Made by a program: the position numbers and the translations under genes
The notes under the pieces: generated by a model
The model's database searches: none
Seen by the model: the letters and a program-made list of their open reading frames with translations, nothing else
Told to the model about the DNA's origin: nothing
Shown here: in pieces, positions 4,764-16,769 of the stretch
How the letters are laid out: each line of letters begins with the position of its first letter
Numbering within the stretch: position 1 is the first letter of the stretch
Assembly (NCBI GenBank): GCA_946183145.1
Contig: CAMGZM010000007.1
Span: 1-33,411, forward strand
Direction of reading: 5' to 3'
Source of the DNA: an uncultured Fretibacterium sp.
GTDB lineage: Bacteria; Synergistota; Synergistia; Synergistales; Aminobacteriaceae
DNA length: 33,411 nucleotides

Positions 4764-7700
4764 TTACTTTTTCCGGGCAATGATGAATCCGAGTCCCAGA
4801 AGCATAACAGGTATCATCATTCCAAAATTGCAGCCTCCGCTTGATGATCCGACTCCTATCTCTGTTCCTGTCTCAGTGCTTGATGACGTTGTTGTGATTG
4901 TCGGGTAATAAGTCTTGTCCGCTTCCAGATATGCCGCAACATTAACGTGTTTGTTGCTTGGGACTGTAGCAACTTCATTCCCGCTGTCATTCATGATTAT
5001 CACAGCTTCATCATCATCCGCCGCGCTCAGAAATTCACCCGTTGAAATGCTGACTGCGTTTGAGTTCCAGAATATCGGAGAATTAACCGCAAATTTGTCC
5101 AGTGATACGCCGAAAACGTAAACTTTATCCTCGCTGACCTCAATAACAGGAAGATATATCACAGAGTCGGAGCTTGCTGCCGTCTGAGTTCCTTTTATGG
5201 CTGTTGACGGGAGTTCTGTTACTTCTGTTGCGCCTGAAACTTTTTCCGACTGTAACGAAAGTGCCTGCCTTATGTCAGCCTTCCTTGAGTCTGTGAGTGA
5301 TATTGCGGGTCTTCCCGGTGTTACTATGTTCGAGATTGTGCCGGGAGTCGGAGCCGGAGTCGGGGTTGGGTCGCCTGACGCTGGAGTCGGAGTCGGGGTC
5401 GGAGTCGTGTCGCCTGATGCCGGAGTCGGAGTCGGAGTCGTGTCGCCTGAAATCGGAGTCGGAGTCGGTCTCGTGTCGTCTGACGCTGGAGTCGGAGTCG
5501 GAGTGTTTGCAGGTGTCATGACGTACCATGTAGCTGTGATTTTTCCGTCATAAGCTCCGTCGCTCATTGTGCCTTCGCCCTCGTCTGAAAGCGCGTAAAC
5601 TTTTCCCTCTTCTGACGGCGTAAATTCCCTGTCAACAAGTACAGTACCGTATGTGAATGTTATTGTGCTGCCGTCGATTCTGATTCCGCTTGAGACGTAC
5701 CCGGTAATGTCGCGTGAGATTCCTTCAGGATACACACCAACAACAGCGAGTCCAATATCACGGAGCTGCGATTCTGTAGGGACTCTCCAGCCGTAAGCGA
5801 CATCAGGAAGCGCGAGAATTTTTGCTGACATGGCCGAGAAATTTTCACTGCCGATTTTCGCCGGGGTAATCTCAAGATTCTTGCTGAAGCCCAATATACC
5901 CCGTTTGCCCGACGGGACTCCGTTAAGTGTTACGTCAAGTGTGAAGCCTGAGTCCGCTATCATGCTTGCGCCCGTGAAATTCTCCGTATAATTCGCGTCA
6001 ACAGATGTATATTCCGTAGCGTTCACGAAATTCTGAGCGGTCAAAACAGCGTCCGTTGAGTCATTGACTCCCGCAGGCGTAAGAAGGAACATCAAGCCCG
6101 CCGCGTTTTTGTCGGCTGAAATGATTTTGTCCGTCGCAACTGTCGTGAACACGTTGATTGTCGCCGAAATATTCGCGTAAGTCTCATCGCTGAATGTCGC
6201 TGTGTATGTCCCCTCTGAAACATCGCCCGAAATCGTCAGTACATCGCCCGACATTGTGCAGCCCGTTACAGCTGTTCTTCCCCGGCCTGTTCCGAATGTT
6301 ACGCCCGAAAGCGAGTAATCCGCGCTTGATGGTACATTGCTGAACGATAGCGGAATCTCTACATTCTGCCCGGCCATGACAGCATGACAGCCAGTCTCAT
6401 AAACTGGTGAAACACTTGCGCTTGTCTTGAGCTTGAGAAATACATCACAGCTTATCACTTCATCAGGAAGATTCTTGAGCATGTATGTTATCTTCTTGAT
6501 TGTCTTGCCTTCCATGTCTGACGTGTATTTGTAGCTCCGTGATACTCCGTGTACTTCAACAAATTCCGCTGTCGATATTGCGAGGTCTTTTGCGTTGAAC
6601 CAGAGATTATTGTTGTGCCTCATCGCGTAGATTTTGCCGTCTGATGTCTCAACCAGCGCACCGAGATAATATCTTGTGTCTCCGCTGCCTAATGTTATGT
6701 CTATGCTGTTGACCGACATAACGTAATCGCCCCAAGTCCCCGGAGAAGTGAGCGTTACTGCTGCGCCTTCCTGAGTGTGATACTCCGTGAGCATTGCGCC
6801 GAATGAGCCATCCGCAGAAACCTCTTTGTACTCGTCAAAACTTTCATCGCTGAACGTGTAGCGTGTATCATTGCTGAGAGTGTTATAGACTGTATCATTC
6901 ATTCTGACTTGAACGGCCGCGACTCCTGTTATGCTTCTTCCGCCCAAATCATTCGACTCGCTCGTGAGCTGTGTGAATCTTGTCGCGATTCTTGATGTCG
7001 GTGATGATATTGCGTCAAGCCCCGCCGCGTATAAGTCTGCTGATGGCTCGCCCAATTCACCCGCGTAAAACTCTGCCCATGTCATATTTGTTGTCGCATA
7101 GTGATATGACTCGTTGACCGTGAAAACTACTCCGATGTCAGAATAATTCTCCGTCTCAAAGATTGCCTGATAACGTCCCGCAGGTAATGAGCCTTTCACC
7201 GTTAATGTGTTGTTGCTGTACGTGTAATCGGTTATCGCCGTGCGTCCGCGTCCTGTTCCTGAGTAAAGAGCCTTCAACGTATACGTAACGCCCTCAGGAA
7301 GCCCCGTGAACGTAAACGCTACAGGAACGTTATTGCCTGAATATATTTCTGCTGACGGTGATACTGCTGCTGTGCTAATCGGCTTGAGATATATATTGCA
7401 GTCAAGAACTTTTGCGGGCTGATCCTTGAGGAGATATGTTATGCGCGTGATAGTTTTTCCGGGAAGGTCAGACGTGTACGCATAATCCCTCGATACTCCG
7501 TGAGGCTCGCTGTAATTTCCGTTGACCGTGAAAGCGATATTGCCCGCGCTGAACCACAAATTATTGTTGTGCCTGAGACCGTAAATTTTCCCGTCTGAAG
7601 TTTCCGCCAATGCTCCGAGATAATAATTCTCATCACCGCTTGAGAGAGTAATATCAATGCTTGTGATGTTGAGCATATAGCTTCCCCATGTTGAGCTTGC

Positions 7701-10100
7701 TCCGCTTGAGAGTGTTACGCTTGCGCCGGAAATGTCTTCTGACTCCGTAACCATCGCCGAGAATGCTCCGTCAGCACTTACTGTCTTGTACTGTGTGAAC
7801 GCCGTATCACTGAGAGTGTAGCGTGATTTGTCCGTGATTGAGTCATAAACCTCACCCGGTATTCTCACATGAACATCCTTAACGCCCGTTATGCTCCGTC
7901 CGCCAATATCGTTTGACTCTGATACGAGCTGTGTGAAGCGTGTTGCGACTCTCGCTGTTGGTGATGATACTGCGTCAAGACCCGCTGAAAGTAATTCTGA
8001 AGCTGTCTGCCCTGTTTCACCCGCATAAAATTCCGCCCATGTCATATTAGTTGTGGCGTAATAGTCGCTTGTTGTGAAACTTGCTGAAATGTCAACGTAT
8101 TTTTCATCGCTGAATGTTGCTGTATACGTTCCTGATTTGCTGTTTGCGATTGTGAGAACTCCGGCTGAATACGAGTAATCCGCGCTCGTTAGGGTCTGCC
8201 TGTTTCTTCTGTTGCCTCCCTCTGGAATGAATGTTACTGATGACAGGGAATAATTTGCGTCATTCGGAACGCCTGCGAATGTAAGATTTACCGGGATATT
8301 TGCGCCCGTCTTCACACTGCCCGAAACAGAAACATCCGCGCTTGTCTGATTCTTCAGGAACACATCGACGCTCAAAACGACATCGGGATTATCCTTTAGC
8401 ATGTACGTTATCTTTGTGATAGTTTTCCCGGCCATGTCGGATGTGTATTGATACCCGCGGCTGACTCCGTGAGGCTCTACAAATTCTTTCACCGATATTG
8501 CGAGATCTTTTGCCTGAAACCACAAATTATTATTGTGCCTCATGCCGTAAATTTTCCCGTCAGAAGTCTCAACGAGCGCGCCAAGGTAATATCTCGTATC
8601 CCTGTCTCCGCTGCCTAATGTTACGTCAACGCTTTCAATGTCGAGAACGTAATCTCCCCATACTCCAGGAGCTGAAACGGTGATTACTGCGTCTGAAACT
8701 TCTTGAGTCTCAGTTGCCATTTTCCCGAATGAGCCATCTGCGCTGACAATTTTATACTCGTCAAAAATATCACTGCTGAACGTATAGCGTGAGTCATTGC
8801 TGAGAAGGTTATAGACATCACCTGTCATTCTCACATGAACATCCTTAACGCCCGTAATGTTTCTTCCGCCAATATCGTTTGACTCTGATACGAGCTGTGT
8901 GAAGCGTGTTGCGACTCTCGCTGTCGGTGAACTCACTGCGTCAAGCCCGGCTGAAAGAAGATTTGCTGACGTTTCGCCGACCTCGCCCGCGTAAAATTCC
9001 GCCCACGTCATATTAGTTGTGGCGTAATAGTCGCTTGTCGTGAAACTCGCTGAGATGTCCGCGTAAATTTCGCTCGTGAATGTTGCTGTATATGTTCCTG
9101 CTTTGCACTCATTGAGCGTCAATACGTTTCCTGAATACGAGTAATCCGCGCTCGTGAGAGTCTGAGTGTCTGAGCGTCTGTTTCCGCCTTCTTTGAGGAA
9201 TGTTACGGACGAAATCACATAGCCCGCATCATTCGGCACGTCAGAGAACACGAGATTGACCGGGATATTTGTGCCTGTCTTGATGTCGCCTGAAACAGAA
9301 ATATCCGCGCTTGTGAGTTCCTTGAGGTAAATATTGAGATTGCTCAAAACTACATCGGGGTGATCTTTGAGCATGTATGTGATTTTTGTTACGGTTTTTC
9401 CTGAAAGATTTTTTGTGTACTCTGGGAATCTCTTTGTCCCGACTCCGTGAGGCTCAATGTAATTTTCATTCACTGTGAAAGCAATATCCGTGTTGCTCCA
9501 CAAATTATTATCGTGCCTCATGCCGTAAATTTCTCCGTCAGAAGTCTCAAGCAACGCGCCCAAGTAATAATCACAATACCTGTTTGCGCTCCCGATTGTT
9601 ATATCTGCGCTCGAAACGCTGAAAACGTAATGCCCCCATCTTGCGCTTGAACCTGTTGCGAGGCTCACACTTGCGCCGGACTCTGTTGCGTCTGTTGACT
9701 CGCTGATCATTTTCCCGAATGTCCCATCAGCGGAAACTTCTTTGTACTCGTCAAAACTTCCGTTGATTACGCTGTAACGTGAAGTATCTGCTAGTGAGTC
9801 GTAAACGTCCTGAGTCATTCGCACCTGAACAGCTTTAAGCCCGGTGATAGTTGTACCGTTGTCGCCTGACTCGCCCAAGAGTAATGGGAATCTCGCAAGG
9901 CCGTGCGTTGTCGGTGTGCTGATAGCGTCAAGCCCTGATGAAAGCAAATCTGCTGACGTTTTGCCGACTTCCCCGGCGTAAAATTCCGCCCACGTCATGT
10001 TTGTTGTTGCGTACACGTAAGAGTCTGAAGCGTAACTGACTCCCAAACTCAGCGAGAGCATGAGAGACAGCAGAAACAGTAAAATTCCTGCACGTTTCAT
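4764..10100 (-). CDS. Large repetitive secreted surface protein with Synergist-CTERM-like sorting tail
   Basis: A 1778-residue predicted surface protein. The ATG at 10100 is preferred over upstream in-frame starts because it has an AAGGAG site and opens directly into a signal peptide (MKRAGILLFL... to SYAS, about residue 25). Four tandem domains of about 320 residues follow, each opening with YATTNMTWAEFYAGE (residues about 30, 358, 680 and 1000). Each then has a conserved SSPT...TRFTQL block, a TSDGKIYGMRHNNNLW block and an immunoglobulin-like AGTYTATF strand. A unique region follows (about 1315-1530), then a Thr-Pro-rich linker (about 1530-1590) and another small domain. The tail is SSSGGCNFGMM, a hydrophobic helix and ARKK, resembling the Synergist-CTERM signal. 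The repeats recall proteins annotated with the Tp47 penicillin-binding-protein domain, but I cannot confirm that. The role may be adhesion, S-layer or binding (inference). Confidence 0.85.
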   Translation of the reverse strand: MKRAGILLFLLSLMLSLSLGVSYASDSYVYATTNMTWAEFYAGEVGKTSADLLSSGLDAISTPTTHGLARFPLLLGESGDNGTTITGLKAVQVRMTQDVYDSLADTSRYSVINGSFDEYKEVSADGTFGKMISESTDATESGASVSLATGSSARWGHYVFSVSSADITIGSANRYCDYYLGALLETSDGEIYGMRHDNNLWSNTDIAFTVNENYIEPHGVGTKRFPEYTKNLSGKTVTKITYMLKDHPDVVLSNLNIYLKELTSADISVSGDIKTGTNIPVNLVFSDVPNDAGYVISSVTFLKEGGNRRSDTQTLTSADYSYSGNVLTLNECKAGTYTATFTSEIYADISASFTTSDYYATTNMTWAEFYAGEVGETSANLLSAGLDAVSSPTARVATRFTQLVSESNDIGGRNITGVKDVHVRMTGDVYNLLSNDSRYTFSSDIFDEYKIVSADGSFGKMATETQEVSDAVITVSAPGVWGDYVLDIESVDVTLGSGDRDTRYYLGALVETSDGKIYGMRHNNNLWFQAKDLAISVKEFVEPHGVSRGYQYTSDMAGKTITKITYMLKDNPDVVLSVDVFLKNQTSADVSVSGSVKTGANIPVNLTFAGVPNDANYSLSSVTFIPEGGNRRNRQTLTSADYSYSAGVLTIANSKSGTYTATFSDEKYVDISASFTTSDYYATTNMTWAEFYAGETGQTASELLSAGLDAVSSPTARVATRFTQLVSESNDIGGRSITGVKDVHVRIPGEVYDSITDKSRYTLSDTAFTQYKTVSADGAFSAMVTESEDISGASVTLSSGASSTWGSYMLNITSIDITLSSGDENYYLGALAETSDGKIYGLRHNNNLWFSAGNIAFTVNGNYSEPHGVSRDYAYTSDLPGKTITRITYLLKDQPAKVLDCNIYLKPISTAAVSPSAEIYSGNNVPVAFTFTGLPEGVTYTLKALYSGTGRGRTAITDYTYSNNTLTVKGSLPAGRYQAIFETENYSDIGVVFTVNESYHYATTNMTWAEFYAGELGEPSADLYAAGLDAISSPTSRIATRFTQLTSESNDLGGRSITGVAAVQVRMNDTVYNTLSNDTRYTFSDESFDEYKEVSADGSFGAMLTEYHTQEGAAVTLTSPGTWGDYVMSVNSIDITLGSGDTRYYLGALVETSDGKIYAMRHNNNLWFNAKDLAISTAEFVEVHGVSRSYKYTSDMEGKTIKKITYMLKNLPDEVISCDVFLKLKTSASVSPVYETGCHAVMAGQNVEIPLSFSNVPSSADYSLSGVTFGTGRGRTAVTGCTMSGDVLTISGDVSEGTYTATFSDETYANISATINVFTTVATDKIISADKNAAGLMFLLTPAGVNDSTDAVLTAQNFVNATEYTSVDANYTENFTGASMIADSGFTLDVTLNGVPSGKRGILGFSKNLEITPAKIGSENFSAMSAKILALPDVAYGWRVPTESQLRDIGLAVVGVYPEGISRDITGYVSSGIRIDGSTITFTYGTVLVDREFTPSEEGKVYALSDEGEGTMSDGAYDGKITATWYVMTPANTPTPTPASDDTRPTPTPISGDTTPTPTPASGDTTPTPTPTPASGDPTPTPAPTPGTISNIVTPGRPAISLTDSRKADIRQALSLQSEKVSGATEVTELPSTAIKGTQTAASSDSVIYLPVIEVSEDKVYVFGVSLDKFAVNSPIFWNSNAVSISTGEFLSAADDDEAVIIMNDSGNEVATVPSNKHVNVAAYLEADKTYYPTITTTSSSTETGTEIGVGSSSGGCNFGMMIPVMLLGLGFIIARKK
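5344..5503. repeat. Hexanucleotide-based minisatellite encoding the Thr-Pro linker
   Basis: Runs of GGAGTC-type hexamers (minus-strand ACTCCG-like, coding Thr-Pro) are interleaved with TCGCCTGA-containing segments. They form about four higher-order units of roughly 36-42 bases encoding Thr-Pro runs separated by Ala-Ser-Gly-Asp-Thr. Units are multiples of three, so copy-number change alters linker length rather than frame. Confidence 0.85.
6140..10012 (-). repeat. Four tandem repeats of about 960-985 bp inside the surface-protein gene
   Basis: Copies begin near 10012, 9026, 8060 and 7100 and run to about 6140, each encoding one domain. Identity is uneven. A 60-base stretch is identical between copy 2 (8865-8924) and copy 3 (7899-7958), while copies 1 and 4 differ more. 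The pattern fits gene-internal duplication with partial recombination between the middle copies. Confidence 0.85.
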
Positions 10101-10140
10101 GAAAATACATCTCCTTGCTAAAAATATGGATTGTTCGGTA

Positions 10141-10169
10141 ATTAAAACATGCAAAGTTTGCAAAGTCAA
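10141..10169 (-). promoter_or_regulatory. Sigma-70-type promoter for the surface-protein gene, with palindrome in the spacer
   Basis: On the minus strand TTGACT (10169-10164), a 17-nt spacer and TTTAAT (10146-10141) lie about 40 nt before the ATG. The spacer contains the perfect 13-base palindrome TGCAAAGTTTGCA (10150-10162), which could be an operator. Confidence 0.6.
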
Positions 10170-10210
10170 ATTAATGTTGTGCGTGTGAGATTTGAACATG
10201 GCCGTTAAAG

Positions 10211-10239
10211 TTGACAGAATAAATTTTCACGTTTAGAAT
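10211..10239 (+). promoter_or_regulatory. Consensus promoter of the lysine (dap) operon
   Basis: TTGACA (10211-10216), exactly 17 bases, then TAGAAT (10234-10239). Transcription would start near 10246, giving a leader of about 220 nt before dapA that contains a small ORF and an intrinsic terminator. This is one of the best promoter matches in the window. Confidence 0.78.
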
Positions 10240-10278
10240 TTCCCGCAAATCCGAAAATTTAAGAAGGGAGCATAAATC

Positions 10279-10368
10279 ATGTCAGCAAAATTTTCATGTG
10301 TTGATATATTTGTTGCTTCCTGCGCGTCATTCCTCAAGATAAAACGTAATTGTGTCGTCTTGCCTTAG
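10279..10368 (+). CDS. Small leader ORF (29 codons) upstream of dapA, possible leader peptide
   Basis: ATG at 10279 follows AAGAAGGGAG at good spacing and opens 29 codons ending at TAG 10366-10368. The product has three Cys and ends in LKIKRNCVVLP; Lys codons 20 and 22 lie eight to ten codons before the stop. It starts about 33 nt after the predicted transcription start and ends 34 nt before a terminator hairpin, the layout of an attenuator leader peptide. The stop region can pair with the terminator loop and 3' arm. I recognise no family. It could also be an independent small protein, or chance; the strong ribosome binding site argues for translation. Confidence 0.5.
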   Translation: MSAKFSCVDIFVASCASFLKIKRNCVVLP

Positions 10369-10402
10369 TGAATGACGGTCTCATATTCCCGCATAAAATC
10401 AG

Positions 10403-10433
10403 CCGCTCATTTCCTAAGGTGGGCGGTTTTTTT
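10403..10433 (+). terminator. Intrinsic terminator in the dapA leader, candidate attenuator
   Basis: CCGCTCA (10403-10409) pairs with TGGGCGG (10420-10426), with one U-G pair, followed by seven T. It sits between the promoter and dapA, so it must be read through for the operon to be expressed. CTTGCCTTAG (10359-10368) can instead pair with CTAAGGTGGG (10414-10423), including three wobble pairs, which would break the 3' arm. Confidence 0.75.
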
Positions 10434-10466: not shown

Positions 10467-11354
10467 ATGACAGACAAGCCCATTTTCAGAGGAGTCGCAA
10501 CAGCACTCATTACCCCGATGAATGAACGCGGAGTCGATTATGATTCGTTCGCAAAGGTTATCGACTGGCAGTGTGAGCAGGGCATTAACGCTCTTGTGAT
10601 TGCAGGGACTACGGGAGAAGGCTCGACTCTTGATGACGCTGAACACAAAGCGGTTGTAGATTTCGCCGTGAAGAGAATCGCGGGAAGGTGCGTAGTTATC
10701 GCCGCGACAGGTTCAAACGATACACGTTACGCCGTACAGCTCTCGAAATATTGCTGTGATGCAGGTGCTGACGCATTGCTTCTCGTTACACCGTACTACA
10801 ACAAGACGACTCAGGGCGGACTCATCAAGATGTACGAGACAATAGCAGACGCTTCATCAAAGCCCGTAATCCTCTACAACGTTCCTTCACGCACAGGGAT
10901 AAACATTGAGCCTGAAACCTACGAAAAATTATCGTATCACCCGAAAATCAACGGCATAAAAGAAGCAAACTCCAACATAAGCAAAATCGTGCACACAGCG
11001 CAGTTAGTCGGCAACAGAATGGATATATATTCCGGCAATGATGATCAGATTGTACCGATTCTCTCGATGGGTGGGCAGGGCGTAATCTCTGTGCTGTCGA
11101 ATCCTATGCCGCGTCAGACGATGGAAATATGCGAGAAATTTTTTGCCGGAGATGTCAAAGGAGCTGCGGAATTACAGTGCAAGTATCTTCCGTTGATTAA
11201 CGCGCTTTTCTGTGAGACAAATCCGATTCCCGTCAAGGCCGCAATGAGCGCGATGGGATTCTGCGAGGATTATTTGAGGCTTCCTCTTGTGCCGATGGAG
11301 AAAACGCACAGGGAGAAATTGTTTGCACTCATGAAAGAGCAGGGGGTAATTTAG
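10467..11354 (+). CDS. dapA: 4-hydroxy-tetrahydrodipicolinate synthase
   Basis: Condenses pyruvate with aspartate semialdehyde in the cytoplasm, the first committed step to diaminopimelate and lysine. It is a 295-residue TIM barrel of normal family length. It shows the GTTGEG substrate-binding loop (Thr-Thr about 48-49), YNVPSRTG with the catalytic Tyr about 137 and the carboxylate-binding Arg about 142, and NGIKEAN with the Schiff-base Lys about 165. ATG 10467 follows GGAAG. It is the first structural gene of the operon, behind the promoter at 10211 and the leader terminator, with dapB starting 3 nt after its stop. Lysine control may act through the leader (inference) and through allostery known for some family members. 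Confidence 0.97.
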   Translation: MTDKPIFRGVATALITPMNERGVDYDSFAKVIDWQCEQGINALVIAGTTGEGSTLDDAEHKAVVDFAVKRIAGRCVVIAATGSNDTRYAVQLSKYCCDAGADALLLVTPYYNKTTQGGLIKMYETIADASSKPVILYNVPSRTGINIEPETYEKLSYHPKINGIKEANSNISKIVHTAQLVGNRMDIYSGNDDQIVPILSMGGQGVISVLSNPMPRQTMEICEKFFAGDVKGAAELQCKYLPLINALFCETNPIPVKAAMSAMGFCEDYLRLPLVPMEKTHREKLFALMKEQGVI

Positions 11355-11357
11355 GTC

Positions 11358-12086
11358 ATGAAGATTATCATTAACGGCGCAGGGGGAAAAATGGGTAATA
11401 TCCTCGCTGACATGGCAGGACATGAAAACATTGCGGCTCTCGTTGACGTTGCGTTTACGACTGCTGACGGGAAATATCACGCGCTTGATGATTTTGGCGG
11501 TGAAGCTGATTGTGTTATCGACTTCAGCAATCATTCAGCGACTCAGGCCGTAACATCTTACTGTGTGAAAAGAAATTTGCCCGTCCTCATTGCGTCAACA
11601 GGACAGACAGAAAACGAGATGACTCTAATCCGTGAAGCCTCAGGGAAAATTCCCGTCTTCATTTCCCCGAATATGTCGGTAGGAGTTGCGTTAGTTGCTG
11701 ACATTGCAGAGAGAGTCGCAAAACTTTTCGGAGATTGCGATATTGAGATGATAGAGGCTCACCACAACCAGAAGTTAGACGTTCCCAGCGGAACAGCGTT
11801 AATGCTCGCAAAAAGACTTCAGGAAGCCCGCAAAGATTCAACGCTCAATATCGGCCGTCATGAGAACGGCAAGAGACCCGCGAACGAAATCGGTATACAC
11901 TCATTGCGTTACGGCTCAGAAGTCGGGACTCACGAGATAATTTTCTCGAACGGACTCGAAACCATAACGATACGTCATGACGCAAAGAACCGGGCATTGT
12001 TCGCGAACGGCGCATTATCGGCGGCAAAATGGCTCATCAATCAGAAGCCGGGACTCTACGGAATGAAGGACTATATAGCGGGGTAA
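11358..12086 (+). CDS. dapB: 4-hydroxy-tetrahydrodipicolinate reductase
   Basis: Reduces the DapA product with NAD(P)H in the diaminopimelate pathway. The N-terminal Rossmann fold carries GAGGKMG (about residues 7-13). The catalytic segment is [15 protein letters not shown], with His-His about 135-136 and Lys about 139, and the Ser-Gly-Thr anion loop. At 242 residues it is a little shorter than many DapB proteins (about 250-270), with a compact region after the cofactor domain. It starts 3 nt after dapA and ends 4 nt before dapH, so the three are surely co-transcribed. Confidence 0.97.
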
Positions 12087-12090
12087 CGTC

Positions 12091-12789
12091 ATGGAAGCGC
12101 ACGAAATCATAAAATTCATAGCAGACGCAAAGAAATCAACGCCCGTAAAAATATATCTCAAGGAAAAATCCCCGGTCGACTTCTCGCAGACTCACGCGAA
12201 AATTTTCGGTGCTTCCGACAAGATTATTTTCGGCGACTGGTCAGAGCTTCAGCCCGTAATAGAGTCTAACCGTCATAATATCGCTGACATTGTGATAGAA
12301 AACTCTTCACGTAACAGCGCGATTCCCCTGCTTGACCTGAAGGATATTCCCGCGCGAATCGAACCGGGCGCAATAATCCGGGACAACGCCGAAATCGGCA
12401 AAAATTCCGTCATAATGATGGGAGCTGTGATAAATATCGGTGCTGTTGTCGGTGAAGGAACGATGATAGACATGAACGCCGTGTTAGGAGGCCGCGCTAC
12501 TGTCGGCAAAAACTGCCACATAGGAGCAGGGGCGGTGCTTGCAGGCGTAATCGAACCAGCGTCAGCAAAACCAGTTGTTGTTGAAGATAATGTTCTTGTC
12601 GGTGCTAATGCTGTCGTGATTGAGGGCGTTAGAATCGGTGAAGGCTCTGTAGTTGCGGCGGGGGCGGTTGTGATTGAGGATGTCCCAGCCGGAAAAGTTG
12701 TAGCAGGATGCCCCGCAAGAGTCATAAAGGACAAAGACGATGCAACAACCCTGAAGACAGCGTTGCAGGAATCATTGAGGAAGATTTGA
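12091..12789 (+). CDS. dapH: 2,3,4,5-tetrahydropyridine-2,6-dicarboxylate N-acetyltransferase
   Basis: Acetylates tetrahydrodipicolinate with acetyl-CoA, which places this organism on the acetylase branch of the lysine pathway rather than the succinylase branch. The 232 residues fit the DapH (YkuQ-like) length. An N-terminal alpha/beta cap ([19 protein letters not shown]) precedes a left-handed beta-helix built of hexapeptide repeats from about residue 90 ([19 protein letters not shown], then [23 protein letters not shown]). The C-terminal [19 protein letters not shown] end is typical. It lies 4 nt after dapB and directly before the deacetylase gene. Confidence 0.95.
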
Positions 12790-12791
12790 CG

Positions 12792-13940
12792 ATGGGAATA
12801 AATTTTCTTTCTGAAGCTGAGAGTCTCAGGGAAAAACTTACGGAGATTCGCAAAGAATTTCACCGAATACCCGAAATCGGCGACAACGAATTTCACACGG
12901 CCGAATTGATTGAACACTATCTTGACATGGCCGGAATATCTCACAGGCGGGTAATCAGCACGGGCATAATCGCAAAGGTTGAAGGGAATTTGCCGGGGAA
13001 AAATTGCGCTGTACGTTCGGACATTGACGCACTGCCCATAACCGAGAATACTGGCTGTGATTTCGCGAGCCAGAATCCCGGAATGATGCACGCATGCGGC
13101 CATGACGTTCACATCACGGGGGCATTAGGCGCGGCGATGATTCTTCAGTCTCACAGGGACGAACTTCCCGGGACAGTAACATTTCTCTTTCAGCCCAACG
13201 AGGAAGGCGACGGCGGAGCAAAACGAATGATTGAGGCGGGATGTCTTGACGGTGTGAGCGCGGTTTTCGGCTGCCATGTTGACCCTGCATTGAAGGTCGG
13301 ACATGTCGGGATAAAGTACGGTGATTTTTACGCGGCTTCAGCAACGTGGGAATTAACGGTAATCGGCAAATCCTCACACGGCGCAATGAGGGATAAAGGC
13401 ATCGACAGCATAGAGGCGGCTTCTCACATTGTCCCGGAAATTTTGCGTATACCGGGCGGAGTCGTGAGTGCCGGGAAATTTCACGCGGGGACGGCGAATA
13501 ACATTCTCGCGGGAAAAGCTGAGTTAGCCGGAATAATACGCACATACGGACTCGAAAAACGTTCGGCCATGTGCAAAGAGCTTGAGAGAGTTTCTGCTGA
13601 CGTGGCAAAAAGATTCGGCGCAAAATCTCAATGCGTCATCACTGACTCTTGCGCGGGAATCGTCAACAACAACGACAAACTTACAGCACTATGCGAACAT
13701 TCAGCGCGTGAAACTTTCGGCAATGAACGAGTCGACATCATCACAAAGCCGTTATTCATCAGCGAGGATTTCGGCAATTACATTATGGCGAAAACAGGCT
13801 GCTTCTATCACGTAGGCGCGGAGTCTGAATATCCGTTGCACAGCGATAAATTTCTCCCGCCGCCTGACACAATAATTGCGGCCTCAGCAATGCACTCATC
13901 AACAGCATACAACTATAACAAGACAGGAGATAACGATTAA
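12792..13940 (+). CDS. M20D-family amidohydrolase, likely N-acetyldiaminopimelate deacetylase
   Basis: A zinc-dependent amidohydrolase of the M20D family, 382 residues. Metal-ligand motifs are HACGHD (about 100-105), FQPNEEG (Glu-Glu about 137-138) and LHSDKF near the C-terminus; the dimerisation domain has SSHGAMRDKGID. The ATG at 12792 is chosen over an in-frame start inside dapH (12708) because GAGGAAG lies 8 nt upstream and the family N-terminus (KEFHRIPEIG) begins soon after. Position just after dapH makes removal of the acetyl group from N-acetyl-diaminopimelate the likely role, as for Bacillus YkuR. Other M20D enzymes hydrolyse hippurate or N-acyl amino acids, so the exact substrate is inferred from context. 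No matching aminotransferase gene is present here. Confidence 0.88.
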   Translation: MGINFLSEAESLREKLTEIRKEFHRIPEIGDNEFHTAELIEHYLDMAGISHRRVISTGIIAKVEGNLPGKNCAVRSDIDALPITENTGCDFASQNPGMMHACGHDVHITGALGAAMILQSHRDELPGTVTFLFQPNEEGDGGAKRMIEAGCLDGVSAVFGCHVDPALKVGHVGIKYGDFYAASATWELTVIGKSSHGAMRDKGIDSIEAASHIVPEILRIPGGVVSAGKFHAGTANNILAGKAELAGIIRTYGLEKRSAMCKELERVSADVAKRFGAKSQCVITDSCAGIVNNNDKLTALCEHSARETFGNERVDIITKPLFISEDFGNYIMAKTGCFYHVGAESEYPLHSDKFLPPPDTIIAASAMHSSTAYNYNKTGDND

Positions 13941-14011
13941 TTGAGGACAATCACAGCGAAATGCACACGAGGAACGGCGGCACTTCATCACTTCATGACA
14001 GGAGAAAAATT

Positions 14012-15331
14012 ATGAGCAAAGTAATCACGGCAAAATTCGGCGGTACATCACTCGCGGACGCTTCACAGATTCGCAAAGTTGCTGAAATCATCAAGTCAAA
14101 TCCCGAAAGAAAATATGTCGTAGCTTCAGCACCGGGAAAAAGATTCAGCGATGACATAAAGGTTACAGATCTGCTTTACAGCTGCTATTCAGAGTTTGCA
14201 AAGGGCAATGAATATTCCGGTGTTCTGGCAAAAATCAAGGCTCGTTACGCTGACATAATCTCGGAGTTAGGGATAAATTTTGACATCACAGAAGAGATTG
14301 AAGCGATTGAGGACGAATTGAGACGATACCCCCCGGCGGATTACTTAGCGAGCAGGGGCGAATATCTTAACTCGAAAATTATTGCTCAGTTCTTGGGATG
14401 GCCGTTTGTTGACGCAGGAGAAGCAATATTTTTTGACGAGAACGGAATCTTTGACTCCGCGAAAACTTATCAGGCACTCGGCGAAAAACTGAAGGCATTA
14501 TCACACGCAGTAATCCCCGGCTTTTACGGCTCAATGCCCGACGGACAAATCAAAACTTTCTCGCGGGGAGGAAGCGACATAACAGGCTCAATCGTCGCAC
14601 GCTCAGTTAATGCTGACTTATACGAGAACTGGACAGACGTATCCGGGATGCTCAGCGCAGATCCGCGAATCGTCGACAAGCCAAAGCCTATAGAGTACAT
14701 CACGTACACAGAATTGCGCGAACTCTCGTACATGGGCGCAAGCGTACTTCATGAGGATGCTGTTTTCCCCGTTCGTACAGCAGGAATCCCCGTAAATATC
14801 CGAAACACAAATTCACCCGATGACGGCGGGACTCTCATTGCCGCGTCAATCCCTTCTGACGTAAAACGAAACCCCGTAACAGGAATCGCAGGCCGCAAAG
14901 GCTTCACGAGCATTAGAGTCGAGAAATCACAGATGAACGGGCAGACAGGATTCGGCGCAAGGCTGTTGTACATTTTCTCACGCAACGGAGTCCCCTTTGA
15001 GCATTGCCCGACTGGTATCGACACAATTAGCGTTGTCGTAAGCTCGTCAGCATTTGACGCAAAACGTGATGACATTCTCCGGGAAATCAAGAACGAATTA
15101 TCCCCGGACTTCATCACAATCGAGAAGAATCTAGCCGCGATTGCTGTTGTCGGCGAGGGTATGATAAGCGTTAAGGGAATGGCCGCAAAAGTCTTCACAT
15201 CACTTGCTGAAGCGGGAATAAATATCCGAATGATAGATCAGGGTTCTGACGAGCTGAATATCATAATAGGCGTTGACGAATCAGACTACGAGAAATCCAT
15301 AAAGGCACTATACGCCGCAATGATAAATTAA
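14012..15331 (+). CDS. lysC: Aspartate kinase
   Basis: Phosphorylates aspartate, the entry step to lysine, methionine and threonine. It has 439 residues: an amino-acid kinase domain followed by two ACT domains that normally sense lysine or threonine. Motifs are AKFGGTS (about residues 7-13), SRGEYLNS, SRGGSDITG (about 184-192), TDVSGMLSADPRIVD (about 207-221), and the C-terminal ACT stretch AVVGEGMISVKGMAAKVF. ATG 14012 follows CAGGAG at good spacing and is preferred over an in-frame start at 13961. It is the last gene of the dap operon, closed by the terminator at 15342. A divergent paralogue starts about 100 nt downstream. Confidence 0.95.
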   Translation: MSKVITAKFGGTSLADASQIRKVAEIIKSNPERKYVVASAPGKRFSDDIKVTDLLYSCYSEFAKGNEYSGVLAKIKARYADIISELGINFDITEEIEAIEDELRRYPPADYLASRGEYLNSKIIAQFLGWPFVDAGEAIFFDENGIFDSAKTYQALGEKLKALSHAVIPGFYGSMPDGQIKTFSRGGSDITGSIVARSVNADLYENWTDVSGMLSADPRIVDKPKPIEYITYTELRELSYMGASVLHEDAVFPVRTAGIPVNIRNTNSPDDGGTLIAASIPSDVKRNPVTGIAGRKGFTSIRVEKSQMNGQTGFGARLLYIFSRNGVPFEHCPTGIDTISVVVSSSAFDAKRDDILREIKNELSPDFITIEKNLAAIAVVGEGMISVKGMAAKVFTSLAEAGINIRMIDQGSDELNIIIGVDESDYEKSIKALYAAMIN

Positions 15332-15387: not shown

Positions 15388-15431
15388 TATTGTGTAAATC
15401 CCATGAAACTTTTTGTGAAGGAGTGATGATT

Positions 15432-16769
15432 ATGAATGACGTTGTTGTGTCAAAATTCGGAAGCGCGGCATTCTCGACTTCTGACATGATCATGAAGACC
15501 GCGCAAATCATTCTGTCTGACCCAAGACGGCGTTACGTAATCGTTTCAGCACCCGGAATACGTCCTGATGTGCCTGAAGACATGAAGATGACAGATATGC
15601 TTTTCATCATGAACGCACGTTATCTCAACCGTGAAAATTTTGATGAGATGATGATACAGATTCGCGACAGGTATATAGAGATTGCGAGGGGATTGGGAGT
15701 CGCCTTTGACGTTGAAGCGGAAATCATGCAGATGAAGAAAAATCTGTTTTTCGGCAAGGGAAATGATTACGTTGTGAGCCGGGGAGAATATATCATGTCA
15801 AAAATGTTTGCTGAGTTCCTCGGCTGGAAATTCATCGACGCTGCAGACTTCGTATTTTTCGCCAAAGACGGAACACTTGACCGTGAGAAAACTTTTGCCG
15901 CGGCATCAGACATTCTCAGCAAGACGGATCACGCTGTAATACCCGGATTTTACGGCACAATAGGAATGAGCTCGATAAAACTTTTTCCGCGGGGAGGAGG
16001 AGACATAACAGCCGCGATAACAGCAAGGGCGGTGAATGCAGTCTTGTGCGAGAAATGGAGCGAGACAACAAAAATTTTCAGCGCAGACCCCGGAATCGTC
16101 AAAGATCCCGCAGTAATCCGCAACATAACTTACGAGGAGTTAAAGCAGCTGACGTACATGGGAATCAGCGTAATTCATGAAGATGTAATATTCCTCATGC
16201 AGAACATAGGAATCCCCTGGGCAATCCGCAACATCAACGACATCAACGACACAGGAACTTCCGTAACATCAGACCTTCCTGAAGAAAGCAAGCGCAGTGT
16301 AGCGGCATGTATCGCGGGAAAAAGAAATTACCGGATAATCCACATCGAGAAATTCGGACTCAACCGCTTAACGGGTATAGGCATGAAAGTTTTCGGAATC
16401 TTCACCGAGAGAAATATACCCTGCGAGCATTACATGTCAGGAATTTACCGCTTCTCAATCGTCGTCAAAAATCCCCTTTTCGACCTCAAACGCCCGGAAA
16501 TTTTAGCCGCACTCAATGACGCGATAAAGCCCGAAAATATAACAGTCGAAAAAAATTTATCGCTTATCACAGTTGTAGGCAAGGGAATGGGAACAACAAA
16601 GGGAATATTCGCGCGAATCTTCAACTCTATTGCAGAGGCCGGGATAAAAGTCCGAATGATTGAGCAGGGAAGCGATGACTTGAACATAATAATAGGCGTT
16701 TACGATGAAGATTATGAAGAGGCTGTAAGAGCTTTGTACAGCGCGATGATTATTGCTGAAGGAGATTAA
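15432..16769 (+). CDS. Divergent aspartate kinase paralogue, possibly altered in catalysis
   Basis: 445 residues, colinear with the upstream lysC over the kinase and both ACT domains, so clearly a duplicate. Retained residues include the N-terminal Lys (SKFG), SRGEYIMS and the Arg and Asp of PRGGGDITA. Conserved positions that have changed are FGGTS to FGSAAF (about residues 9-14), the Ser of GGSD to Gly, TDVSG to SETTK (about 209-213), and ADPRI to ADPGI. The ACT region (TVVGKGMGTTKGIFARIF and SDDLNIIIGV) is well conserved. It could be a slow kinase, a regulatory partner of LysC, or an enzyme with another substrate. ATG 15432 is chosen over 15426 because AAGGAG lies 8 nt upstream. It has its own -10 at 15382 and is 3 nt from the next gene. 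Confidence 0.8.
   Translation: MNDVVVSKFGSAAFSTSDMIMKTAQIILSDPRRRYVIVSAPGIRPDVPEDMKMTDMLFIMNARYLNRENFDEMMIQIRDRYIEIARGLGVAFDVEAEIMQMKKNLFFGKGNDYVVSRGEYIMSKMFAEFLGWKFIDAADFVFFAKDGTLDREKTFAAASDILSKTDHAVIPGFYGTIGMSSIKLFPRGGGDITAAITARAVNAVLCEKWSETTKIFSADPGIVKDPAVIRNITYEELKQLTYMGISVIHEDVIFLMQNIGIPWAIRNINDINDTGTSVTSDLPEESKRSVAACIAGKRNYRIIHIEKFGLNRLTGIGMKVFGIFTERNIPCEHYMSGIYRFSIVVKNPLFDLKRPEILAALNDAIKPENITVEKNLSLITVVGKGMGTTKGIFARIFNSIAEAGIKVRMIEQGSDDLNIIIGVYDEDYEEAVRALYSAMIIAEGD

Follow-up and report, generated by a model that had tools for sequence, protein, structure and literature searches.

The dapA-dapB-dapD-deacetylase-lysC operon of an uncultured Fretibacterium sp. is very probably controlled by a ribosome-mediated transcription attenuator that senses the supply of lysyl-tRNA, as suggested by comparative sequence analysis and modeling of the RNA leader preceding dapA. 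The window, i.e., the whole stretch of DNA analyzed, comprises 33,411 nucleotides of a 2.55-Mb genome (G000), which, among named relatives, is closest to MAGs from uncultured Synergistaceae, mostly recovered from goat, deer, and sheep (rumen, reticulum, or omasum). The genus in which the attenuator is found consists of gut Synergistaceae, many members of which are ruminant derived. The elements of the control region and the operon are as follows.

10211 to 10239, plus strand: sigma-70 promoter TTGACA-N17-TAGAAT, matching the consensus at 11 of 12 positions
10265 to 10272, plus strand: pairing segment with the SD of the leader ORF (AGGGAG at 10265 to 10270); pairs with 10314 to 10321 in the fold (SD-sequestering hairpin)
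10279 to 10368, plus strand: leader ORF of 29 amino acids, MSAKFSCVDIFVASCASFLKIKRNCVVLP followed by the stop codon; in frame, with start codon and SD, in 33 of 33 leaders
10314 to 10321, plus strand: anti-SD arm inside codons 12 to 15, from the fold and the arm-swap test
10325 to 10340, plus strand: arm A, pairing with B (10357 to 10377) as an anti-antiterminator or protector hairpin
10336 to 10347, plus strand: putative control codons Lys20 (AAG), Ile21 (AUA), Lys22 (AAA, 10342 to 10344), and Arg23 (CGU), from conservation and terminator modeling
10357 to 10378, plus strand: arm B, including GAAUGACGG; overlaps the leader stop codon (10366 to 10368) and pairs with A or, through 10364 to 10378, with C
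10401 to 10433, plus strand: intrinsic terminator, C:D hairpin with U run (stem 10401 to 10428, then the T run)
10403 to 10418, plus strand: arm C, the terminator 5' arm and loop and the antiterminator partner of B
10467 to 11354, plus strand: dapA, 4-hydroxy-tetrahydrodipicolinate synthase, the first regulated gene (NCBIfam TIGR00674, 325 bits versus a cutoff of 206)
11358 to 15331, plus strand: remaining lysine/DAP operon with dapB, a DapD-type N-acetyltransferase, an amidohydrolase, and an aspartate kinase (NCBIfam)

Judged by gene identity (NCBIfam matches), the products of the operon are DAP and lysine, and its amidohydrolase is probably an N-acetyl-DAP deacetylase. Directly 3' of the aspartate kinase gene of the operon lies a second aspartate-kinase-like gene (15390 to 16769; translation judged by eye). 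On the other side, an ORF of about 1,811 codons on the minus strand (4764 to 10199) is divergent from the dap promoter; with its signal-peptide-like start, internal repeats, and Thr-Pro-rich tail, it likely encodes a surface protein. A promoter of the type TTGACA-17/18-TATNAT occupies the same position in all leaders whose contig extends that far. Across the genus, the promoter spacer (10217 to 10245 in the window, and homologues; consensus GAATAAATTTTC.CGTTTA) shows more conservation than is usual for spacers and is possibly an operator or a shared promoter feature. An inverted-repeat link between the spacer sequence TCACGTTTA and the leader sequence TAAACGTGA was dropped, as the promoter is untranscribed and no covariation was seen by eye.

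Promoter, leader ORF with a good SD, and terminator were all found where an earlier sequence-only reading of this region had placed them, the terminator lying between the ORF and dapA, the first gene, as in ribosome-mediated attenuators. Computation supports an antiterminator that is mutually exclusive with the terminator, a protector arm inside the ORF, and codons for the end product (Lys) at a position where a modeled stall frees the antiterminator. Pairing of arm B with A precludes its pairing with C, and C in turn can join either B or D, which yields the logic of protector, antiterminator, and terminator. Folding of the 195-nt leader, a check that the sequence-only reading had proposed, gave -66.8 kcal/mol, far more stable than the shuffled sequences (-40.3 +/- 3.9 kcal/mol; z = -6.7), none of which was as good among 200.

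The sequence-only reading had further proposed that CTTGCCTTAG (10359 to 10368) pairs with CTAAGGTGGG (10414 to 10423) and thereby breaks the 3' arm of the terminator. These segments can indeed form 10 bp (-10.4 kcal/mol), and native arms are better than species-swapped ones (z = -4.1), but the register is offset from the conserved one. The conserved antiterminator joins 10364 to 10378 with 10403 to 10418 (-13.3 kcal/mol; a shuffled C was as good in 17 of 5,000 cases) and, within the terminator, engages mainly the 5' arm with the loop instead of the 3' arm. Pairing of -7 kcal/mol or better is available to the revised B:C in all 33 species and to the earlier register in 8. The latter, which overlaps the outer B:C pairing, was accordingly rejected as the main antiterminator and is best seen as a partial view of B:C. 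Two elements had gone unreported in that reading, i.e., arm A (10325 to 10340 with 10357 to 10377) and the SD-sequestering hairpin (10265 to 10272 with 10314 to 10321).

A covariance model built from 29 leaders was used to search 188 genomes of the phylum. It matched 34 of the 43 genomes of the genus (best E value of 6e-5 or lower in each) and none outside the genus, and the fetched loci lie upstream of dapA. Each genome has one such site, except for G007, in which an insertion splits the match (L028 and L148; G007:C73, about 10560 to 10680). Situated between arms B and C, this insert of about 100 nt terminates with a CCCCCGACTTCAGTCGTGGGG hairpin that looks similar to an IS200/IS605-type end. 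Nine genomes of the genus gave no match: five with no orthologous dapA or an unchecked one, three more divergent genomes with a different region upstream of dapA (L031 to L033), and G010. In the last (L007; G010:C11, about 38188 to 38300), the terminator is gone along with the greater part of the leader ORF, and the promoter and the core of B, with GTGAATGACGG, are kept before dapA.

For the comparison of leaders, 33 species were used, with one species carrying an insertion omitted; in all of them, the homologous dapA leaders retain both the ORF and the pairing. The ORF has few Lys codons, only two or three, as had been remarked from the sequence. Lys22 is nonetheless invariant (21 AAG and 12 AAA codons), Lys20 is present in 32 of the 33 species, and the use of both AAG and AAA at these two positions indicates that it is the amino acid that is selected. 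At codon 21, 31 species have AUA and two have AUG (Met), with neither AUU nor AUC in any, and Arg23 is found in 31 species (Leu or His in the other two), encoded by CGU in 30. The conserved peptide block thus reads Leu-Lys-Ile-Lys-Arg-Asn/Asp/Glu; the rest of the ORF is not conserved, and its N-terminal length varies. The leader stop codon falls 6 to 16 nt before the end of B in every leader.

Coevolution of the pairing arms was assessed by an arm-swap test, in which the energy of each species' own duplex was compared with those of arms exchanged between species in 20,000 permutations, a procedure that leaves some shared ancestry in the statistics. Native B:C duplexes had a mean energy of -13.18 versus -10.93 for swapped ones (z = -6.9), a difference equaled in none of the permutations. 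Native pairing also exceeded swapped pairing for A:B (z = -3.5; 3/20,000), SD:anti-SD (z = -3.2; 12/20,000), and C:D (116/20,000), whereas control combinations of unrelated arms showed no significant coevolution in the same test. With the set reduced to 15 cluster representatives, B:C retained a z value of -5.5 (0/20,000), and A:B, SD:anti-SD, and E:E2 each remained at or below 247/20,000. The pairing designated E:E2, between the codons after Lys22 and the stretch just 3' of B, coevolves (4/20,000) and is weak in the window; as a guess, it may keep ribosomes that stall too far upstream from causing read-through. Compensatory versions of the arms occur in separate lineages, i.e., GAGGAUUGGCGG with CCGUCCGUCCUC (L004), GCGGAUUGACGG with CCGUUCAUUCCGC (L011), and UUCUAUGGUGAA with UUUCACGAUAGAA (L014), as well as in a close sister species (L151), where UUAGAGAA pairs with UUCUCUAA and the window has UUAGUGAA. 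Counted in fixed columns, the arms are paired in 80 to 93% of cells, compared to 26 to 54% when slid; C:D is paired in 93% of cells across 29 species, with a covariation score matched by none of 500 shuffles. Column-based covariation in the MAFFT alignment is modest to weak for A:B and B:C owing to indels that displace the arms between columns, which is why per-species duplexes were used.

The effect of ribosome position was modeled with a partition function from the leader to the end of D, placing a 28-nt footprint (an E. coli-like value) at each codon; the resulting probabilities reflect equilibrium energies and not kinetics. For the window, the terminator probability was 0.92 for naked RNA, 0.00 to 0.01 with the A site at codons 13 to 24, and 0.92 to 0.97 from codon 25 to the stop codon. 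Averaged over the 33 species, it was about 0.6 at codons 2 to 12, 0.35 at Lys20, 0.16 at Lys22, 0.17 at Arg23, and 0.89 when the A site was placed on the stop codon, compared to 0.65 for naked RNA. As the lowest value is reached at Lys22, the invariant Lys codon sits where stalling would favor read-through most. A simpler truncation model agreed: a stall at Lys22 gave the antiterminator in 29 of 33 species even with D exposed, and a stall at the stop codon did so in none. The proposal of the sequence-only reading that a ribosome at Lys22 frees the antiterminator, while one at the stop codon masks B, thus gains support from both comparison and modeling. Naked RNA is predicted to antiterminate in 10 of the 33 species, and in these, basal termination may depend on translation.

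From the computed anatomy, conservation, coevolution, and ribosome-position effect, we infer that the ORF is translated, that ribosomes stall at its Lys codons, and that the operon responds to lysine. A pioneer ribosome would translate the 29-codon leader behind RNA polymerase. With charged tRNA-Lys scarce, it would stall at Lys20 or Lys22, its footprint covering A and ending before B; B would then be free to pair with C, the terminator would be blocked, and the operon would be transcribed. With ample lysine, the ribosome would reach the stop codon inside B and mask this arm, the C:D terminator would form, and transcription would end near position 10433. If the leader were not translated, A:B pairing would allow the terminator to form. 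The SD hairpin probably restricts the loading of further ribosomes.

Other lysine-responsive RNA devices were searched for in parallel. The lysine riboswitch (L box, RF00168) elsewhere also controls lysine genes by transcription termination; as the sequence-only reading had held, none is present in the window, and none exceeded the cutoff in 61 relatives, while control genomes did match. T-boxes (RF00230) gave no match at the leader of the window and none above the cutoff in its genus. Subthreshold T-box matches before a trpD-like gene occur in only two genus genomes (L163, G013:C3:2371-2631, minus strand; L164, G025:C44:10792-11075, plus strand). In the sister genus g16 (L165 to L167), by comparison, a T-box lies about 50 nt upstream of dapA (75 bits, E value of about 1e-16, below the Rfam gathering score of 93 bits), with AAG (Lys) aligned at the specifier position. 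With this apparent Lys specifier, it is a nonhomologous counterpart of the attenuator. A Lys-type T-box also reads tRNA-Lys charging; in the leader studied here, the sensor would be the translating ribosome. Rfam leader families had no match in the window, and the Rfam matches that did fall in the leader (mir-90, trpB motif) were at chance level only.

Lysyl-tRNA is the likeliest signal since the operon serves DAP and lysine synthesis, g16 carries a T-box of apparent Lys type, and no match above the cutoff was seen for the lysine riboswitch in 61 relatives or for the T-box in the genus. Considering structure alone, arginyl-tRNA would be compatible as well because Arg23 is an equally good modeled stall site; that Arg23 is nearly as conserved as Lys22, with the same modeled effect, and that the attenuator is found in one genus only are points against our reading. 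An attenuator responding to general translation speed or to a charged tRNA other than lysyl-tRNA, mainly that for Arg (CGU, codon 23) or Ile (AUA, codon 21), would draw on this near equality and on the his-leader assay in Salmonella by Chevance et al. (PMC4046918), in which ribosome stalling was intermediate at AUA and high at CGU. We consider it very unlikely, given that the operon yields DAP and lysine, that a T-box with an apparent Lys specifier serves the same operon in the sister genus, and that only Lys22 is invariant, Arg23 and Ile21 each being replaced in two species. At the far end of the range, a fixed, unregulated terminator next to an incidental small ORF is scarcely credible: neither leader ORFs nor terminators are rare, and scanning for terminators by itself gave a result only a little above shuffles (1 found versus 0.6 expected), but such a combination would not account for mutually exclusive arms that coevolve, an invariant Lys codon at the modeled optimum, and conservation over 33 species.

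The same A/B/C/D switch could also be set by a nascent-chain arrest peptide of the TnaC or SpeFL type, with LKIKR in the tunnel and free lysine or another small molecule arresting the ribosome. An arrest peptide would suit the amino acid conservation of LKIKR, the constraint found at codons 21 and 23 in addition to the Lys codons, and the Pro-stop ending of many leaders. On the other hand, the residues before LKIKR, which would be in the tunnel for a stall there, are not conserved, an observation that says nothing on a stall further downstream. The C-terminal residues vary by clade (VVLP, CLCE, FYGE, and FHA), the CCUUAG sequence is explained by its pairing with C, and the best modeled stall site is the Lys codon itself. 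We regard an arrest peptide as improbable and favor stalling at Lys codons for want of charged tRNA-Lys.

The classical attenuation model does not account for a constrained third base in codons 21 and 23. In the dapA genes of the same species, AUA makes up 17% of Ile codons and CGU 18% of Arg codons, i.e., fixation in the leader is far higher. At the nucleotide level, AUR is held at codon 21, and codon 23 is almost always CGU followed by RA, so that a URA stop codon is kept beside the Lys codons in both other frames (10339 to 10350 in the window, and homologues), in 33 and 30 of the 33 species, respectively. Tentatively, and at rather long odds, Lys-AUA-Lys-CGU may be more than two Lys codons: the out-of-frame stops could catch, before B is masked, any ribosome that slips on a starved Lys codon, hungry-codon frameshifting having been reviewed in PMC5009743, or, alternatively, AUA read by a lysidine tRNA could act as a second lysine-dependent slow codon. 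The two AUG cases keep UGA in the other frame and speak against a strict need for AUA. Further ideas are that both are slow codons or that the constraint acts at the RNA level.

Control of lysine synthesis is known from the riboswitch and from T-boxes, and the amino acids with established leader-peptide attenuators are Trp, Phe, His, Thr, Leu, and Ile/Val. With the enterobacterial trp, his, thr, leu, ilv, and phe leaders, the dapA leader shares the promoter, an ORF with control codons, successive mutually exclusive anti-antiterminator, antiterminator, and terminator hairpins, and a stop codon positioned for masking of the antiterminator arm by a ribosome that has completed the ORF; its Lys-Ile-Lys-Arg block resembles the Trp-Trp-Arg of trpL. 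It differs in its lysine control codons, in the dapA...lysC operon, in its occurrence in Synergistota, and in an antiterminator arm that spans the terminator loop in several clades, and there is no sequence similarity. In PMC1262725, leader-peptide attenuators are described for other amino acids, and lysine operons elsewhere are assigned to the L-box riboswitch. A further parallel is SEP5 of Sinorhizobium meliloti, an sORF rich in Thr and Lys that lies in the 5' UTR of what the paper calls aspartate dehydrogenase; the SEP5 passages considered here (PMC10117765) propose that it is a leader peptide, and so it too would place Lys codons close to a gene of the aspartate family. With six Thr and three Lys codons, it would read mainly threonine, and these passages give no terminator/antiterminator comparison. 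An established lysine leader-peptide attenuator was not found in the open-licence literature.

The alignment of 33 species is a ready data set for testing which leader codons matter and what underlies the third-base fixation at codons 21 and 23. If the leader does read lysine, the reach of ribosome-mediated attenuation would grow by one amino acid and would include Synergistota. Within a single family, sister genera would in that case monitor one and the same tRNA, at one and the same operon, by two unrelated RNA devices, a contrast that would provide a clean case for studying the replacement of regulatory mechanisms.
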